Assembly: GCF_023502235.1 (NCBI RefSeq)
Contig: NZ_JAMFLY010000001.1
Span: 992,001 to 1,056,000 of the forward strand
Direction of reading: 5' to 3'
Source: Flagellimonas myxillae
GTDB lineage: Bacteria; Bacteroidota; Bacteroidia; Flavobacteriales; Flavobacteriaceae
DNA: 64,000 nucleotides
A program made the position numbers and the translations under genes. Below, in pieces: positions 40,565 through 49,178 of this stretch (the stretch's first letter is position 1; the number at the start of each line of letters is the position of its first letter). The notes beneath the pieces are model-generated. The model saw only the letters and a list, made by a program, of their open reading frames with translations, searched no databases and was not told the origin of the DNA.

Positions 40565-41396
40565 AGTGCTGAAATCAGGTTTTTTTATGACTCTTCAGGA
40601 TATGGGTCGATTTGGCTACCGCGATAGGGGAGTTCCTGTATCTGGTACCATGGATTTTGAGGCCGCAAATAAAGCCAATCAACTCTTGGAAAATGAATCT
40701 GACTCTGCGGTACTGGAAATCACCATGACCGGCCCCACCTTGTTATTTGAGGACCCAAGCTATATCTGCCTTTCAGGTGCTTTTTTATCCCCGACCCTGA
40801 ATAATGAGCCAATCGAAAATTATGAAGTGGTCCAAGTGGCAAAGGGGGATATTTTATCCTACGGCAGGTTGGAAAAGGGTTTTAGAACCTATTTGGCAAT
40901 AAAAGGCGGTTTTAAGGCGCCAAAGATTTTAGGAAGTAGGTCACAATACCATCCCGTTACCCCAACAAAGTGTTTAAAGGATGGTAGTGCCGTCGAATAT
41001 GATGAAACCCTGGCTTTTGAGCCTGCAATTTCCGGCTTAAAAGTGGAGGATAAGTTGGGCAAGGATGTTCTTGAGGTTTATAAGGGACCTGAGTTTTCCA
41101 TCTTGTCTGATGCCCAATTGGGGGCCTTGTTTGGACGATCGTTTTCCATTTCTGAAAAAAATAATCGAATGGCCTATCAGTTGACAGAATTGATACAAGG
41201 CCACAAACATTCCATGCTTACATCTGGAACCATGCCCGGCACCGTACAGTTTACACCCGCAGGTCGGTTGATCATTTTAATGAAGGATGGCCAGACTACA
41301 GGAGGCTATCCCAGAATATTGCAACTTTCGGTGGAGTCCATAGGACTTCTGGCCCAAAAAAAGTTTGGTGATTCCATTTCGTTTAAGTTGGTGTGA
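40557..41396 (+). CDS. pxpC: 5-oxoprolinase subunit C (KipA / biotin-dependent carboxyltransferase-like)
   Basis: A 279-residue protein of the KipA/AHS2 family, subunit C of 5-oxoprolinase; it is often annotated as a biotin-dependent carboxyltransferase because it is related to urea amidolyase domains. The blocks LQDMGRFGYRDRGVPVSG (residues 13-30), IKGGF and GTVQFTPAGRLIILMKDGQTTGGYPRI (in parts) fit. It closes the transporter-pxpABC operon; no terminator was found before the ilv leader region 50 bases on. Confidence 0.92.
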   Translation: MLKVLKSGFFMTLQDMGRFGYRDRGVPVSGTMDFEAANKANQLLENESDSAVLEITMTGPTLLFEDPSYICLSGAFLSPTLNNEPIENYEVVQVAKGDILSYGRLEKGFRTYLAIKGGFKAPKILGSRSQYHPVTPTKCLKDGSAVEYDETLAFEPAISGLKVEDKLGKDVLEVYKGPEFSILSDAQLGALFGRSFSISEKNNRMAYQLTELIQGHKHSMLTSGTMPGTVQFTPAGRLIILMKDGQTTGGYPRILQLSVESIGLLAQKKFGDSISFKLV

Positions 41397-41447
41397 AAAT
41401 TTTCCATCACGTTGGATTTTTAATTTATTTTTTTGTACTCTTGAATT

Positions 41448-41504
41448 GTGAAAACAAAAAACCTGATCAATAGCGTCGTCATTATTATTCCAGCAATGGA
41501 GTGA
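41448..41504 (+). CDS. ilv leader peptide (attenuator)
   Basis: A GTG-initiated ORF of 18 residues, MKTKNLINSVVIIIPAME, followed by TGA at 41502-41504. Seven of 18 residues are Leu, Ile or Val, with a run VVIII in the middle (GTC GTC ATT ATT ATT), the products of the downstream operon. It is followed 23 bases later by an intrinsic terminator, and the stop codon overlaps a segment able to disrupt that terminator. The in-frame codon further upstream is a stop, so GTG (or ATT) must be the start. The arrangement is that of classical amino-acid attenuators. Confidence 0.85.
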   Translation: MKTKNLINSVVIIIPAME

Positions 41505-41540
41505 TACAGATTTGTTATTGATTCAAAAAAAGCCTGTATC
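41503..41540 (+). promoter_or_regulatory. Antiterminator pairing of the ilv attenuator
   Basis: GATACAG at 41503-41509 begins within the leader peptide stop codon and is perfectly complementary to CTGTATC at 41534-41540, the loop-side half of the left terminator arm. If the ribosome stalls at the Ile/Val codons, this 7-bp pairing can form and prevent the terminator. If it reaches the stop codon, it covers 41503-41509 and the terminator forms. GATACAG is a second copy of the right terminator arm's start. Confidence 0.7.
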
Positions 41541-41564
41541 CACAAAAGATACAGGCTTTTTTTT
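41528..41564 (+). terminator. Attenuator terminator upstream of ilvD
   Basis: A perfect 13-bp stem AAAAGCCTGTATC (41528-41540) / GATACAGGCTTTT (41548-41560) with a 7-base loop, followed by a run of eight T residues (41557-41564). It lies 191 bases before the ilvD start and can only act on transcripts of the ilv operon or readthrough from pxpC. Confidence 0.88.
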
Positions 41565-41755
41565 ATGTGCTTGAAAAGAAATGAATATGGGATTTTAAAT
41601 CAAGTTAAATATCTGATTATCATTAAGATAAGGGTGTATTGATTTAAATGGATTTAGAGCCCTCAAAACTGTTAAAAATATAGGGTATTTGAAACATCTA
41701 TCTTTGGATAATGGAGTAAATTCAATAGAATTTTAGAATTGAAAGAAAGTCATTA

Positions 41756-43435
41756 ATGGAATTGAACAAACATAGTAAGAACGTCACCCAAAACCCTTCG
41801 CAACCAGCATCGCAGGCCATGTTATATGCCACTGGATTAAGGGAAGAGGACATGAAAAAGGCGCAAATAGCCATTGGAAGTACCGGCTACGATGGCAACC
41901 CTTGCAATATGCACTTGAATGAAATTGCGCAGGAAATCAAAAAGCATGTCAACGAAGTGGGGCAAGTGGGACTGACATTCGGAACTATTGGGGTATCCGA
42001 TGGTATTTCCATGGGAACACCGGGCATGAAATATTCGTTGGCTTCCAGGGATATAATTGCAGATTCCATGGAGACTGTGATGAACGGTATGTCCTATGAT
42101 GCATTGATTGGGGTTGTTGGATGTGATAAAAATATGCCTGGGGCCATTATTGCAATGCTAAGGCTTAACCGACCATCCATAATGGTTTATGGTGGTAGTG
42201 TTGCTTCAGGAAACTACAAAGGAAAAAAGCTGAATATAGTATCCGCGTTTGAAGCCTTGGGGCAGAAAATTGCCGGAGAAATCGATGAGGCAGAATACAA
42301 GGAAATCATCAAGAGGGCAATCCCCGGGGCAGGTGCCTGTGGAGGCATGTATACAGCAAATACCATGGCCTCATCCATAGAATGTATGGGGATGTCCTTA
42401 CCTTATAATTCATCCATACCAGCCGTCAATCCCAACAAACTTTCCGAGGCCGAACGTACGGCCCAAGCCATCAAAAATCTTTTGGAGCTCGATTTAAAAC
42501 CAAAAGACATCGTTACAAAAAAATCCATTGAAAATGCAATCACTTTGGTCAATGCCCTCGGGGGTTCTACTAATGCCGTATTGCATTATTTGGCCATTGC
42601 CTATGCGGCAGATATAGATTTCACCTTGGAGGATTTTCAACGGATAAGTGATAGAACGCCGCTCATCGGAGATCTAAAACCTTCCGGAAAATACCTCATG
42701 GAGGATGTTCATGGTATTGGAGGAACCCCAAAAATCATGAAGTACTTGTTGGAACAAGGCTTTTTACACGGGGACTGTATGACCGTAACTGGTAAGACTT
42801 TGGCGGAAAATCTTGAAGATGTTGAGGCCATGGAATTTGAGGAGCAAGACTTGTTGTACAGCGTTGACAAGGCTTTGAAATCTTCTGGTAATTTACAGAT
42901 ACTAAAAGGAAATTTGGCAGAAGATGGTGCAGTGGCAAAAATATCGGGCAAAGAAGGCTTAAAGTTTGAAGGAAAAGCTGTGGTATATGATAGTGAACCT
43001 GAAGCCAATGAAGGCATATCTAGAGGCGAAGTGGAAAAAGGGAATGTAGTGGTTATTCGCTATGTAGGTCCAAAAGGAGGACCAGGGATGCCCGAAATGC
43101 TAAAACCCACATCTATGATTATGGGAGCCGGTTTAGGAAAATCGGTTGCATTGATTACGGATGGTCGTTTTTCTGGAGGAACCCACGGATTTGTGGTTGG
43201 TCACGTAACCCCAGAAGCTCAAGAAGGAGGGGCGATTGCCCTTGTGAAGACCGGTGATCTAATTACCATCAGCGCTTTGGACAATTCCATTACCTTAAAC
43301 ATTTCAGATGAGGAAATGGAAAGAAGAAGGGCCAAATGGCAAGCTCCACCCTTAAAATTTACCAAAGGAATATTGTACAAGTACGCAAGATCTGTTGCAT
43401 CGGCTTCAGAAGGATGCGTAACCGATAAATACTAA
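41756..43435 (+). CDS. ilvD: Dihydroxy-acid dehydratase
   Basis: Iron-sulfur enzyme of 559 residues that dehydrates 2,3-dihydroxy acids to the 2-keto precursors of valine and isoleucine. Three cluster cysteines are visible in [14 protein letters not shown] and [12 protein letters not shown], with the C-terminal [15 protein letters not shown] block. It is the first gene behind the attenuator. The ATG at 41756 gives the usual family length. ilvB follows after 53 bases that contain a small hairpin. Confidence 0.96.
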
Positions 43436-43446
43436 ACCATTTTGTC

Positions 43447-43466
43447 ATTCCCATTTCGATGGGAAT
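43447..43466. repeat. REP-like hairpin between ilvD and ilvB
   Basis: ATTCCCAT, loop TTCG, ATGGGAAT: a perfect 8-bp stem closed by a stable UUCG tetraloop, in the wider context GTCATTCCCATTTCGATGG. It has no T-tract, so it is not a terminator. The context is like the 'GTCATTCC...GGAATC' palindromes scattered through many bacterial genomes, and it may stabilise the mRNA between the two genes. Confidence 0.5.
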
Positions 43467-43488
43467 CTCATCAATTAAAGTTGAGATT

Positions 43489-45222
43489 ATGAGTACAGAG
43501 ACACTAAAGAAAGAAAAAAACAAAACGGCCAAGAGCATTCGAATAAGCGGTGCGGAGGCTATTATACATTGTCTTTTGGCGGAAGGGGTAGACCTCATTT
43601 ATGGATATCCTGGAGGAGCCATCATGCCCGTGTATGACGAGCTATATAAGTTTCAGGATAAACTGACCCATATTCTCACCAGACACGAGCAAGGTGCAAC
43701 TCATGCTGCCCAGGGATATGCAAGGGTCAGCGGAAAGGTGGGGGTGGCCATGGCCACTTCAGGTCCTGGGGCTACCAATTTGGTAACAGGTTTGGCGGAT
43801 GCCCAGATTGACTCAACCCCGATGGTGTGCATTACTGGACAGGTTCCAAGACATTTGTTGGGCTCAGATGCGTTTCAGGAAACCGATATTGTGGGTATTT
43901 CGACCCCGGTGACTAAATGGAATTACCAAGTGACCAAAGCCAGTGAGATTCCTGAGATTATGGCCAAGGCTTTTTACATAGCTCGGTCCGGTAGGCCAGG
44001 TCCAGTGTTGGTGGATATCACCAAAAACGCGCAATTTGATGAGCTGGATTTTGTGTATGAAAAATGCACAGGGGTCCGCAGTTACAAACCGGTACACAAA
44101 CCGGATATAAAAGCTATTGAGGCTGCTGCCGAGATAATCAACAGGGCAAAAAAGCCGTACATCGTATTTGGACAAGGGGTTATTTTAGGCCACGCCGAGG
44201 AAGAATTAAAAGCATTGGTAGAAAAAGCTGGTATTCCCGCAGCTTGGACTGTACTGGGACTTTCTGCAATGGACACCGACCATCCGCTGAATGTGGGTAT
44301 GGTGGGTATGCATGGAAATTATGGACCCAATGTCCTGACCAATGAATGCGATGTGCTCATTGCTATCGGCATGCGATTTGATGACCGGGTAACCGGAAAT
44401 TTGGATACCTACGCAAAACAGGCCAAAGTCATCCATTTTGAGATTGACCCAGCTGAAATCAACAAGAATGTAAATGCAGACATAGCCGTCTTGGGCGATG
44501 CAAAGCAAACATTGGGGTTGTTATTACCATTGGTCAACAAAAATGAACATAAGGACTGGCTGGCAGAATTTGATAAAAAGTATCAAATAGAATACGATAC
44601 AGTCATTAAAAAAGATATTGAGCCAACCAAGGAGGGGCTTACCATGGGTGAGGTGATTGAGCAAATCAACAAAGCTTCTGGACATAAGGCCGTGGTGGTT
44701 ACCGATGTGGGACAACATCAAATGATCGCTTGCAGATATGCCAAGTTCAAACAATCCAAGAGCAATGTTACCTCTGGAGGATTGGGAACCATGGGGTTTG
44801 CCCTGCCAGCAGCCATAGGTGCCAAAATGGGTGCCATGGAACGTGAGGTGGTGGCTATTATTGGTGATGGAGGGTACCAAATGACCATTCAGGAACTTGG
44901 GGTAATCTTCCAACATAACGTACCGGTAAAAATAGTGGTGCTCAACAACGATCATTTGGGTATGGTGCGCCAGTGGCAGGAGCTTTTCTTCGAAAGTAGA
45001 TATGCGTCCACAGTGATGACCAACCCTGACTTTGTCAAAATAGCGGAAGGCTACCATATCAAATCAAGAAGAGTTACGGAACGCAGTGACCTACAGGATG
45101 CTGTTGAGGAAATGATTGCTTCCAAAGACCCATATTTCTTGGAAGTTAGGGTGGAGAAAGAGGACAATGTGTTTCCAATGATTCCATCCGGAGCCTCGGT
45201 ATCTGATATTCGATTGAAGTAA
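43489..45222 (+). CDS. ilvB: Acetolactate synthase large subunit
   Basis: Thiamin-diphosphate and FAD enzyme that makes acetolactate or acetohydroxybutyrate, the first common step to valine, leucine and isoleucine. From the ATG at 43489 it has 577 residues; an ATG ten codons earlier lies in the hairpin region and is less likely. The catalytic Glu is in HEQGATHAAQGYAR, and the ThDP-binding GDGGYQMTIQEL block lies near the C-terminus. The regulatory subunit ilvN follows but is separated by a methyltransferase gene. Confidence 0.96.
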   Translation: MSTETLKKEKNKTAKSIRISGAEAIIHCLLAEGVDLIYGYPGGAIMPVYDELYKFQDKLTHILTRHEQGATHAAQGYARVSGKVGVAMATSGPGATNLVTGLADAQIDSTPMVCITGQVPRHLLGSDAFQETDIVGISTPVTKWNYQVTKASEIPEIMAKAFYIARSGRPGPVLVDITKNAQFDELDFVYEKCTGVRSYKPVHKPDIKAIEAAAEIINRAKKPYIVFGQGVILGHAEEELKALVEKAGIPAAWTVLGLSAMDTDHPLNVGMVGMHGNYGPNVLTNECDVLIAIGMRFDDRVTGNLDTYAKQAKVIHFEIDPAEINKNVNADIAVLGDAKQTLGLLLPLVNKNEHKDWLAEFDKKYQIEYDTVIKKDIEPTKEGLTMGEVIEQINKASGHKAVVVTDVGQHQMIACRYAKFKQSKSNVTSGGLGTMGFALPAAIGAKMGAMEREVVAIIGDGGYQMTIQELGVIFQHNVPVKIVVLNNDHLGMVRQWQELFFESRYASTVMTNPDFVKIAEGYHIKSRRVTERSDLQDAVEEMIASKDPYFLEVRVEKEDNVFPMIPSGASVSDIRLK

Positions 45223-45223
45223 G

Positions 45224-45805
45224 ATGGACCAAGCAAATATCTTGGATACGCCAAACGTATATCCCAGCTTATTGAGCAAATCCGATGAAATTGGGTTCAC
45301 CATGCCATCTGATTTGTATATAGGTTCCTTGTTGAAAACTTTGGTGGCCTCCAAACCTTCGGGGAGTTTCCTGGAGTTGGGGACTGGAATGGGGTTGTCT
45401 TTGGCGTGGATACTGGAAGGAATGGATACGGCTTCCAAGTTGGTCAGTATAGACAACGATATGGATCTCATCAATATTGCTAAGGGTTTTTTCAGAGATG
45501 ACAGTCGCCTCCAATTGATATGTGCAGATGGCGAAGATTGGATTGCCCAAAACCAAGATGAAAGGTTCGATTTGGTGTTTGCCGATGCATGGCCTGGGAA
45601 GTACAGTTATCTAGAAGAAACTTTGGAGCTGATTAAAGTAGGAGGATTTTATATTATTGATGATATGGAAGAACAGCCCAATTGGCCGGAAGGACATTCG
45701 GAACAGGTATCGTCACTGGTTAATAAATTAGAAACAAGACAAGATTATACAATTACTAAAATGGACTGGTCAACGGGAGTCATCGTTGCGGTTAAAACAA
45801 AATAA
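45224..45805 (+). CDS. Class I SAM-dependent methyltransferase (O-methyltransferase-like)
   Basis: A 193-residue Rossmann-fold methyltransferase. Motif I FLELGTGMGLS lies at about residues 48-58, followed by VSIDND (the ribose-binding acidic end) and LVFADAWPGKY and GGFYIIDDM blocks that recall small-molecule O-methyltransferases. It is inserted between ilvB and ilvN with one base before and two bases after it, so it is certainly expressed with them. No role in branched-chain amino acid synthesis is known for such an enzyme; the target is open. Confidence 0.85.
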   Translation: MDQANILDTPNVYPSLLSKSDEIGFTMPSDLYIGSLLKTLVASKPSGSFLELGTGMGLSLAWILEGMDTASKLVSIDNDMDLINIAKGFFRDDSRLQLICADGEDWIAQNQDERFDLVFADAWPGKYSYLEETLELIKVGGFYIIDDMEEQPNWPEGHSEQVSSLVNKLETRQDYTITKMDWSTGVIVAVKTK

Positions 45806-45807
45806 GC

Positions 45808-46335
45808 ATGGAAAAACAATGGTATACCATTTCGGTTTATTCGGAAAATAACGTGGGGCTATTGAATAGAATATCGGGAATATTCTTAAAGAGACACATT
45901 AATATTGAGAGTCTAAATGTCTCTAAATCAGAAATAGAGCATGTGTCAAAATTTACCATCGTAATTCACTCGACCGAGGATTGGGCCAGAAAAATTGTAG
46001 GGCAAATTGAAAAGCAAATCGAAGTTATTAAAGCCTTTTACCATACGGATGACGAAACCATCTATCAGGAATCAGCGCTTTTTAAAATAGCTTCCCATTT
46101 GTTGTTCGATGAAAGGCAGATCCAAAATATCATCAAAGAGAGTAATTCACAGATCGTAACGGTGGCACGTGACTTTTTTGTCTTGGCAAAAACTGGAAGG
46201 AGACATGAAATAGATGAAATGCACGATGCTCTGGAGCCCTATGGCATAATGCAATTTGTCCGTACTGGTAGAATTGCCGTGACCAAGGCAACCATGCCCA
46301 TTACCGAAATCTTGGAAGAATTTCATAATCAATAA
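45808..46335 (+). CDS. ilvN: Acetolactate synthase small (regulatory) subunit
   Basis: A 175-residue ACT-domain protein that activates the large subunit and gives it valine feedback inhibition. The ACT domain spans about residues 5-75, opening [19 protein letters not shown], with the family block [19 protein letters not shown] in the C-terminal half. It lies two bases after the methyltransferase gene and 25 bases before ilvC. Confidence 0.94.
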
Positions 46336-46360
46336 AATAGCACTAAATAAAAAACCAAAA

Positions 46361-47836
46361 ATGACAAATTATTTTAATACACTGTCGCTACGGGATCAGT
46401 TAACACAATTAGGAAAATGTAGGTTTATGGAAGCCGGTGAATTTGCCGATGGAGTAACCGCATTGAAAGGTAAGAAGATTGTGATTGTGGGCTGTGGAGC
46501 GCAAGGACTTAACCAAGGTCTCAATATGAGGGATTCCGGATTGGACATCTCCTATGCATTGCGGGAAGCGGCCATCAAAGAACAAAGACAGTCTTTCAAA
46601 AATGCCAAGGAAAACAATTTTACTGTAGGCACCTATGAGGAACTGATTCCATCCGCCGACTTGGTGATCAACCTTACCCCGGACAAACAGCACACCAACG
46701 TGGTTAGTGCCGTTATGCCTCTGATGAAACAAGGTGCCACGCTTTCTTATTCCCACGGGTTCAATATTGTAGAAGAAGGTATGCAGGTTAGGGAGGATTT
46801 GACTGTGATCATGGTGGCTCCTAAAAGTCCAGGTTCGGAAGTACGTGAGGAATACAAAAGAGGTTTCGGGGTACCGACCTTGATTGCCGTTCACCCAGAA
46901 AACGACCCTGAGGGTAAAGGATTGGAGCAGGCCAAGGCGTATGCAGCGGGAACAGGTGGACACAGAGCGGGAGTTTTGGAATCTTCTTTTGTTGCCGAAG
47001 TAAAATCGGATTTGATGGGAGAGCAAACCATTCTGTGCGGTTTGTTGCAAACTGGTTCCATCCTGTCTTTCAATAAAATGTTGGAAAAAGGAGTGGACGC
47101 CGGTTACGCGTCCAAATTGATTCAATTTGGTTGGGAAACCATTACCGAAGGATTGAAACATGGTGGCGTTACCAACATGATGGATCGTTTGTCCAATCCT
47201 GCCAAGATTAAGGCGTACGATTTGGCCGAGGAGCTTAAGGATATTATGCGTCCCTTGTTCCAAAAACACCAAGATGATATTATGAGCGGACATTTCTCCA
47301 AAACCATGATGGAAGATTGGGCCAATGGGGATAAAAACCTATTGACTTGGAGAGCCGCTACTGGAGAAACCGCATTTGAAAAGACTCCTGCCGGAGATTT
47401 TGAGATTTCCGAGCAAGAATACTATGACAATGGTGTGTTGATGGTCGCTTTTGTAAAATCAGGGGTAGAGTTGGCCTATGAAACCATGACTGAATCTGGA
47501 ATTATTGGAGAGTCTGCTTATTACGAATCCTTGCATGAGACGCCATTGATTGCGAACACCATTGCCAGAAAGAAATTGTTTGAAATGAACCGAGTGATTT
47601 CTGATACGGCCGAATACGGATGTTATCTGTTTGATCATGCCTGTAAGCCTCTTTTGGAGGATTTCATGAAGGGCATCGACACCGATGTTATTGGAACCCA
47701 TTATGGAAAAGGGAAGGACAATGGTGTTGACAATGTGAAGCTGATTGCCGTGAACAAGGCTTTGCGCGAGCACCCTGTAGAGATTGTAGGGACAAGATTG
47801 CGTGAATCCATGACCGCCATGAAGCCAATCGTTTAA
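46361..47836 (+). CDS. ilvC: Ketol-acid reductoisomerase, class II
   Basis: NADPH- and Mg-dependent enzyme that isomerises and reduces acetolactate to dihydroxy-isovalerate. At 491 residues it is the long (class II) form with a duplicated knotted C-terminal domain, as in enteric bacteria and plants, not the 330-residue class I. The nucleotide-binding [17 protein letters not shown] motif is near residues 46-62. A long antisense frame on the other strand is a shadow. Confidence 0.96.
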
Positions 47837-47879
47837 TGGAATACTCCACTATGGAGTAATGTAATAAGGGTGTTTTTCT

Positions 47880-49178
47880 ATGAAAAGCAGCACAAGGACA
47901 AATAGAACAAAGGGGGCGCAGGATGTGCCCCCTTACTTTCCTCAGCTAGAAGATATTCAGCGGGCTGCCAAGGTTATTGAGCCGGTTGCCGGAGAAACCC
48001 CATTGCAACCAAGTATCCGACTATCCAAACAACTTGGGGCCAACATCCTGCTAAAACGGGAGGATTTGCAACGGGTGCGCAGCTATAAAATTAGGGGTGC
48101 CTTTAATAAAATCAGTGCGCTGACCAAACAAGAGTTGGACAATGGTGTGGTTTGTGCCAGCGCGGGAAACCATGCCCAAGGCGTGGCCTTTGCATGTCAT
48201 CATTTGGGAGTACGGGGCACTATTTTTATGCCAGTAGTGACCCCAAAACAGAAGATTGACCAAACCAAAATGTTTGGAGGGGATTGGGTCGAAGTTGTTT
48301 TGGAAGGAGATACCTTTGATGACTCCTACAAGGCCTCCAGGGAATTTTGCGAGATGGAAAAGAAGGTTTTTGTCCACCCGTTTGATGACCCCAAAACCAT
48401 TGAGGGGCAGGCTACCATTGGTTTGGAACTCCTTAAACAAACCCAAGAACCCATAGATTATGTTTTTGTGGCCGTGGGCGGAGGAGGATTGGCTTCTGGT
48501 TTGTGTGCCGTGTTTAAGCAGCTTTCCTCGCAGACCAAGATTATTGGGATTGAGCCCGAAGGCGCACCCTCCATGCGAAAATCCATAGAAAAAGGAGCGC
48601 TTGTTGAACTCTCTAACATTGACAAGTTTATAGACGGAGCCGCTGTGCAGAAGGTTGGTGCATATACCTTTCCAATTTGCCGAGATCATTTATACAAAAT
48701 GGAAACTGTCCCTGAGGGCAAGGTCTGCCAGTCCATTCTGGAACTGTACAACCGCGACGCCATTGTGGTGGAGCCTGCCGGGGCCTTGACCATAGCTGCC
48801 TTGGAAAATTTCAGGGATGAAATAACAGGTAAAAATGTGGTCTGTGTGATCAGTGGCAGTAACAACGACATAACCCGTACTGCAGAAATAAAAGAAAGGG
48901 CATTGCTCTATGGAAACCTAAAGCATTATTTCATTGTTCGGTTCCCGCAACGCCCAGGCGCACTAAAGGAATTTGTGGCGGATATTTTAGGACCAACGGA
49001 CGACATCACACATTTTGAGTATTCCAAAAAATCCAGCCGCGAAAATGCACCTGCAGTGGTGGGGATTGAGCTGAAATCCCCAGAAGACCTTGATCCATTG
49101 ATAGCACGAATGAAGGCCAATAACTTCTTTGGGGACTATCTAAACGATAAACCTGACCTTTTCCAATATTTGGTATAG
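47880..49178 (+). CDS. ilvA: Threonine dehydratase, biosynthetic
   Basis: PLP enzyme of 432 residues that deaminates threonine to 2-oxobutyrate for isoleucine. The PLP lysine lies in RVRSYKIRGAFNK (about residue 63), the GGGGLASGLC phosphate-binding loop at about 201-210, and a C-terminal ACT-like regulatory domain (about 340-430; HYFIVRFPQRPGALKEF) allows feedback control by isoleucine. It closes the ilv operon and converges on the sugar transporter gene with 9 bases between. Confidence 0.94.
   Translation: MKSSTRTNRTKGAQDVPPYFPQLEDIQRAAKVIEPVAGETPLQPSIRLSKQLGANILLKREDLQRVRSYKIRGAFNKISALTKQELDNGVVCASAGNHAQGVAFACHHLGVRGTIFMPVVTPKQKIDQTKMFGGDWVEVVLEGDTFDDSYKASREFCEMEKKVFVHPFDDPKTIEGQATIGLELLKQTQEPIDYVFVAVGGGGLASGLCAVFKQLSSQTKIIGIEPEGAPSMRKSIEKGALVELSNIDKFIDGAAVQKVGAYTFPICRDHLYKMETVPEGKVCQSILELYNRDAIVVEPAGALTIAALENFRDEITGKNVVCVISGSNNDITRTAEIKERALLYGNLKHYFIVRFPQRPGALKEFVADILGPTDDITHFEYSKKSSRENAPAVVGIELKSPEDLDPLIARMKANNFFGDYLNDKPDLFQYLV

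Follow-up and report, generated by a model that had tools for sequence, protein, structure and literature searches.

A putative ribosome-mediated transcription attenuator upstream of the ilvD operon in Flagellimonas myxillae and its relatives

What governs the entry of RNA polymerase into the ilvD-ilvB-MT-ilvN-ilvC-ilvA operon of Flagellimonas myxillae? The question is raised by a short ORF and a T-tailed hairpin that stand in front of ilvD in the window, i.e., the whole 64,000-nt stretch of DNA analysed here. An earlier note on this DNA had described them as a translational attenuator controlled in the manner of enteric ilv leaders. Their anatomy is instead that of transcription attenuation set by the position of a ribosome, and, judging from sequence comparisons, we consider it highly probable that the element is a ribosome-mediated transcription attenuator of this operon. 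Pfam confirmed the downstream gene order proposed in the note: ilvD (41756-43435, forward strand; PF00920, PF24877) is the first structural gene, followed on the same strand by ilvB, a methyltransferase-like ORF, ilvN, ilvC, and ilvA (43459-49178). The methyltransferase-like ORF (45224-45805, 193 residues, PF01596/PF13578) lies between ilvB and ilvN.

The leader peptide ORF (41448-41504, forward strand) starts with GTG, stops at TGA (41502-41504) and encodes MKTKNLINSVVIIIPAME, which confirmed the reported 18 codons, VVIII run, and seven Leu, Ile, or Val residues. Its control codons are Val10, Val11, Ile12, Ile13, and Ile14 (41475-41489, forward strand). The reported intrinsic terminator with eight T's was likewise found, as a perfect inverted repeat (41525-41540/41548-41563) with a loop of 7 nt, a 9-bp core bounded by G:C pairs (16 bp if A:U pairs are counted), and a tract of eight T's at 41557-41564. 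A simple terminator consensus scan did not include this terminator among its calls, probably, as we guess, because the A:U pairs lengthen the stem into the T tract.

Two further parts were absent from the earlier note. One is a 1:2 (pause or anti-antiterminator) hairpin at 41465-41523 on the forward strand, supported by the minimum free energy fold and by covariation in the alignment of genus members (alignment A1). The other is segment 2, the antiterminator strand GATACAG (41503-41509, forward strand), a second copy of the terminator 3' arm that shares bases with the leader stop codon. Segment 3, GCCTGTATC (41532-41540, forward strand), is the terminator 5' arm and can pair with either segment 2 or segment 4; the latter, GATACAGGC with the T tract (41548-41564, forward strand), forms the intrinsic terminator with it. 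Because GATACAG can pair with 41534-41540 of the terminator 5' arm in place of the 3' arm, three pairings compete in the region, as in a textbook attenuator: 1:2 (41465-41523), 2:3 (41503-41509 and 41534-41540), and 3:4, which is the terminator. Folded from the start codon onwards, the first 128 nt gave two hairpins at -44.3 kcal/mol, compared with -19.7 ± 3.1 kcal/mol in 200 shuffles (z -7.9), and the 7-mer GATACAG arose in 12 of 20,000 shuffles of 41501-41524. A detector that asked for a short ORF rich in Ile, Leu, and Val, a T-tailed hairpin, and a second copy of the hairpin 3' arm near the stop was run over both strands of the 64-kb window and fired at the attenuator only (two ORFs, one hairpin). 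The features by which attenuators are recognised are found together in the sequence: a codon run for the operon products, a terminator between the leader and the first gene, an antiterminator sharing a terminator strand, and a 1:2 hairpin overlapping the control codons.

A structured leader ahead of an amino acid operon is also what a metabolite-binding riboswitch or a T-box would present, the ORF then being there by chance. We regard this as very unlikely, since the window yielded no Rfam match at gathering score over its 64 kb and the leader ORF is conserved. Among the Rfam leader, T-box, and riboswitch families, none scored above its curated cut-off; the best at 41380-41780 was Thr_leader (RF00506), which has a terminator-type hairpin in common with the element but scored 33.5 bits against a cut-off of 55, and did so on both strands, so that the element is not a member. 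A T-box or a known riboswitch was rejected on these scores below the cut-off.

Conservation was assessed in a genus set of 36 genomes, including the window's own, 35 of which have ilvD. The attenuator was present in 28 of these 35 members and absent upstream of ilvD in seven (L008, L009, L012, L014, L031, L113, and L115); for L031 just 277 nt of upstream sequence was at hand, yet this spans the usual place of the terminator. By eye, L008 and L009 appear to carry a decayed attenuator remnant. In the 28 aligned leaders (A1), the frame was open to the same stop in every case. One of them (L023) has an additional in-frame Ile codon and, because of its length, was excluded from the substitution counts and the position table. 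In the remaining 27 leaders, control position 10 was Val in 16, Glu in ten, and Ala in one; Val11, Ile12, and Ile13 were kept in 27, 23, and 25, respectively; and position 14 was Ile in 20, Val in six, and Leu in one. Leu occurred at position 6 in 13 of 27 leaders. Since Leu is not conserved and position 6 lies outside the control run, Val and Ile are the likely signals, and the leader would be expected to sense them more than Leu. Among pairwise single-base codon differences, frame 0, which was without stops, had the highest synonymous share (713/2043, vs 573/2386 and 315/2153 in the other two frames). This is modest coding evidence, because RNA pairing constrains the same bases too.

The pairings were tested on A1 against shuffled controls, whose significance is overstated because the 28 genus sequences are related to one another. 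In the terminator, 99.3% of cells were paired; both-side changes occurred in 17 cells, compared with 5.6 ± 1.6 in shuffles, but they came from two pairs only, the same as in shuffles. The 1:2 hairpin was paired in 89.0% of cells and had both-side changes in 35 cells, compared with 10.5 ± 3.8 (0/500 shuffles as high), distributed over eight pairs, compared with 5.5 ± 1.4 (30/500 shuffles as high). For the antiterminator, 96.1% of cells were paired, and its first seven pairs, with G:U allowed, were possible in 28/28. Covariation of the 2:3 pairing in A1 was not above the shuffle control, because the two strands are nearly invariant; when the partner strand was shifted as a control, the pairing fell to 21-53%. 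The energy of the duplex between the upstream strand and the terminator 5' arm was better than in mononucleotide shuffles (p ≤ 0.05) in just 8 of the 28 genus loci and 16 of 33 other loci, so energy alone would not prove an antiterminator.

The leading edge of a ribosome is taken as +15 from the P site. With this footprint, a ribosome stalled with the last codon of the Ile/Leu/Val run in its A site would have its edge 3 nt before segment 2 in 28/28 leaders; in locating the last control codon, the last three codons, where some leaders have Leu or Ile, were omitted by construction. By coordinate arithmetic with the same footprint, a ribosome at the stop codon would have its P site at 41499 and its edge at about 41514, covering segment 2.

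These positions suggest how the proposed attenuator would work. RNA polymerase starting from a putative promoter, P1, would give a transcript that begins at or beside the leader start codon. With an ample supply of charged Ile- and Val-tRNA, a ribosome would read the leader to its TGA, which sits on segment 2; by masking segment 2 there, it would let the 3:4 terminator form, and transcription would halt before ilvD. Under a shortage of Ile or Val, the ribosome would stall on Val10-Ile14 with its leading edge about 3 nt short of segment 2, and the free segment 2 would pair with segment 3, preventing the terminator and allowing the polymerase to enter the operon. Without a ribosome, the 1:2 hairpin would sequester segment 2, making termination the default. 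The parts, their conservation, and the covariation of the 1:2 hairpin and the terminator can be read from the sequence itself, while from them we infer the promoter, the leaderless start, the stalling, the masking, and the readthrough.

The -7-like box of P1, TACTCTTG, lies at 41436-41443 on the forward strand, with a predicted +1 at 41448, and departs from the consensus TAnnTTTG at the fifth position. The looser pattern TAnnnTTG stood exactly 4 nt 5' of the leader start codon in every genus member with the attenuator except L018 (27/28), and the exact TAnnTTTG at this place in 0/28. In the available text on Flavobacterium psychrophilum, the TAnnTTTG box spans -12 to -5, and leaderless mRNAs made up 5.5% of those examined (PMC9723704). 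By this placement, +1 would fall on the leader start codon, and the transcript is predicted to begin there, i.e., to be leaderless. For background, the exact box occurred 4-8 nt before the first ATG in none of 50 window ORFs of at least 150 aa, many of which are non-genes or not operon-first; only the strict TAnnTTTG was counted here. In loci outside the genus, the box mostly lay farther from the leader or was not found, with 16-22 nt in Flavobacterium and 5 nt in two loci (L043, L059) as examples. The top-scoring ORF was not the true leader for L010 and L023 in this box-distance scan and for L023 in the energy test above; A1 holds the true leaders. If the leader does start at or near the 5' end of the transcript, ribosomes would need to load there without any upstream RNA. 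To our knowledge, Shine-Dalgarno sequences are absent in the Bacteroidota species studied.

Is such an element found outside the genus? We examined 120 ilvD loci obtained from three genome searches (30 + 80 + 10); the 80 were the best 80 of at least 596, which makes the set of 120 uneven as a sample. A locus detector for a short Ile/Leu/Val-rich ORF followed by a T-tailed hairpin was positive upstream of ilvD in 61/120 loci, compared with 4/120 reverse strands, and a stricter form that adds the 3'-arm repeat near the stop was positive in 26/120, compared with 0/120 reverse strands. Of the 61 positives, 28 came from the genus and 33 from the 85 loci outside it, the remaining 52 of which were negative. 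Some of the 61 are weak and may be chance matches (e.g., L034, L065, L083, L094, and L119). Positives from outside the genus included Flavobacterium, Dokdonia, Lutibacter, Aquimarina, Winogradskyella, Gaetbulibacter, Saprospiraceae bins, and an Ignavibacteriae bin; their leader sequences were often different, and the Ile/Val runs were kept. The earlier note had staked its proposal on conservation of the leader codons upstream of ilvD in relatives, and the proposal stood this check, with an Ile/Leu/Val-rich ORF and hairpin in 28 of the 35 genus loci and 33 of the 85 others, a few of the 33 being weak. A chance ORF was rejected on the grounds of the conserved frame and codons and the reverse-strand control.

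A covariance model built from the genus (R1) found matches at E ≤ 0.01 in 133 of the 249 family genomes, of which 40, the window's own included, had a match at E < 1e-6. The 40 were counted by hand, and the 93 of 133 genomes without a match below 1e-6 were set aside; matches with E from 1e-6 to 0.01 were not taken as support, and several of these hit a single place on both strands. At the 11 best places outside the genus, ilvD lay downstream in 11/11, within about 300 nt in ten and about 1 kb away in one (L161), and each had an ORF with at least five Ile, Leu, or Val among its last 20 residues.

Two side observations concern single loci. Four of the 120 (L037, L057, L066, and L070, from Lutibacter, Aquimarina, an Ignavibacteriae bin, and Gaetbulibacter, respectively) carry tandem units of leader ORF and terminator before ilvD; the 3'-arm repeat was found in the first unit only, and only in L037, L057, and L066. 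Upstream of ilvD in a Polaribacter bin (L032), a T-tailed hairpin follows a short ORF, MNKQVLNIISTVKTR, that is poor in Ile/Val codons; by eye, this looks like a decaying attenuator.

The hairpin could instead be only the terminator of the upstream pxpABC operon, with the ORF present by chance and ilvD driven solely by a second promoter-like site, P2. The position of the pxpC end, at 41396, about 130 nt 5' of the hairpin, would suit such a role. P2 consists of GTTAAAA (41671-41677) and TATCTTTG (41699-41706) on the forward strand, with a predicted +1 at 41711, and its GTTAAAA and TAnnTTTG were present in 35/35 genus members, including the seven without the attenuator, which speaks for this reading. 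However, the conserved frame, control codons, and 1:2 hairpin and the low rate on reverse strands (4/120) speak against it, and the attenuator also occurs in other genera and in a locus without a pxpC match (L028), showing that it is not merely the pxpABC terminator. We therefore consider this explanation unlikely. The chief doubt about the attenuator as sole setter of ilvD expression nevertheless comes from P2: because this site is conserved 3' of the terminator, control by the attenuator may be partial. P2 may bypass the attenuator and probably gives an unattenuated basal level of ilvD.

Between the attenuator and P2, a pattern match revealed a conserved block, TGAATAT...TTAA...CTGA (41582-41616, forward strand). 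The pattern, which was composed after the sequences had been inspected, matched 31 of the 35 members of the genus, where shuffles predict 0.2, and 8 of the 85 other loci, where they predict 0.4; the block is perhaps a regulator site.

Leader peptides may also have targets elsewhere, as the peTrpL leader peptide of Sinorhizobium meliloti can act in trans according to the available part of PMC7298713. Against an element acting chiefly in trans through its leader transcript or peptide, with attenuation secondary, stand its location upstream of ilvD and leader codons that match the products of that operon, and we give such an arrangement very little credence.

Similar leaders were found at two other amino acid operons in a survey of 15 genus genomes, one of which had no hisG match and two no main trpE match. 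Leaders with three or four consecutive His codons and a hairpin preceded hisG at 14/14 loci (L122-L135), that of the window's own genome being MRNRNTHHHFYTCPQAR, and Trp leaders with WWW and a hairpin preceded the main trpE at all 13 loci obtained (L136-L148). The exact box lay 5 nt 5' of the trp leaders in 13/13 and 7-8 nt 5' of the his leaders in 11/14, so that both are predicted to be nearly leaderless. Whether the ilv, trp, and his attenuators in the genus share one design, with the leader starting at or within about 4 nt of the predicted 5' end, and some relatives (4/120) carry serial units before ilvD, is in our judgement an evenly balanced matter.

The leader of the E. coli ilvGMEDA operon (ilvL) combines a short Val/Ile-rich leader, a pause hairpin, an antiterminator, and a terminator ahead of an ilv operon. 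The element described here has the short Val/Ile-rich leader, pause hairpin, antiterminator, terminator, and ilv genes in common with enteric ilv leaders, a likeness of features. It differs from them in the predicted leaderless start, the lack of conserved Leu, and the conserved promoter-like site 3' of the terminator. Control as in enteric ilv leaders, the earlier proposal, is largely supported by the anatomy and its conservation. Leu is a less likely signal, with Leu6 present in 13/27, and P2 suggests that the control may be partial.

In the available text on the Corynebacterium ilvB-II motif or ilvBNC attenuator, a BCAA-rich uORF of usually 15-17 codons with an AUG or GUG start is described, and leaderless initiation is discussed for the C. 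glutamicum ilvBNC leader (PMC10272879, PMC11857589). That system, as presented there, also has a BCAA-rich uORF, a terminator, and an antiterminator; it belongs to another phylum and begins with ilvB, compared with ilvD here, the two being likened by features. In Flavobacteriaceae, strong indications of leader-peptide attenuation were reported from transcript and structure data for amino acid operons of F. psychrophilum, for which the available text names pheA and hisG elements (PMC9723704, 2021); family and proposed mechanism are common to both studies, whereas the operon here is that of ilvD, and a word search of the main text of that paper did not find 'ilv'. Short ORFs reminiscent of leader peptides were noted in B. 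thetaiotaomicron (PMC7366714, in part). We found no description of an ilvD attenuator in Bacteroidota among the open-licence papers listed, as judged by title or the start of the abstract; no Bacteroidota ilv case was added by the available parts of PMC8632094, PMC4833913, and PMC8305728 or by a word search of PMC13323073. Leader-peptide attenuation has thus already been suggested for flavobacterial amino acid operons in the accessible part of PMC9723704, and the ilvD case would add a member. The predicted leaderless start and downstream promoter appear to be variations on a known kind of attenuator.

This type of switch is well known, and the bacterial group in which it appears here has hardly been studied for such switches. 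Classical attenuation requires a ribosome close behind RNA polymerase. We know of little direct evidence for transcription-translation coupling in Bacteroidota, and no title on it was among the matches listed. If the shared design of the ilv, trp, and his attenuators and the serial units considered above are real, ribosomes in Bacteroidota would follow RNA polymerase at a distance short enough for classical attenuation to work, and some members would sharpen the response by serial attenuators. The ilv, his, and trp signatures in Flavobacteriaceae could serve as native reporters with which to ask about transcription-translation coupling in Bacteroidota. The ilvD attenuator contributes a structure with three defined states, a named set of control codons, and a covariance model.

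The structural genes gave a further minor observation. IlvD of the window and its three close relatives (window 41756-43435; L002-L005) were 96-98% alike among themselves, 67-69% like those of 25 other genus loci, and 80-82% like those of the Algibacter/Polaribacter loci L032-L034 and L042. For the first 300 residues of IlvB, the same group was 84-92% like the 25 genus loci and about 75-76% like L032-L034 and L042. These similarities suggest that ilvD was exchanged on its own at this site, with the leader before it and the ilvB after it being native.
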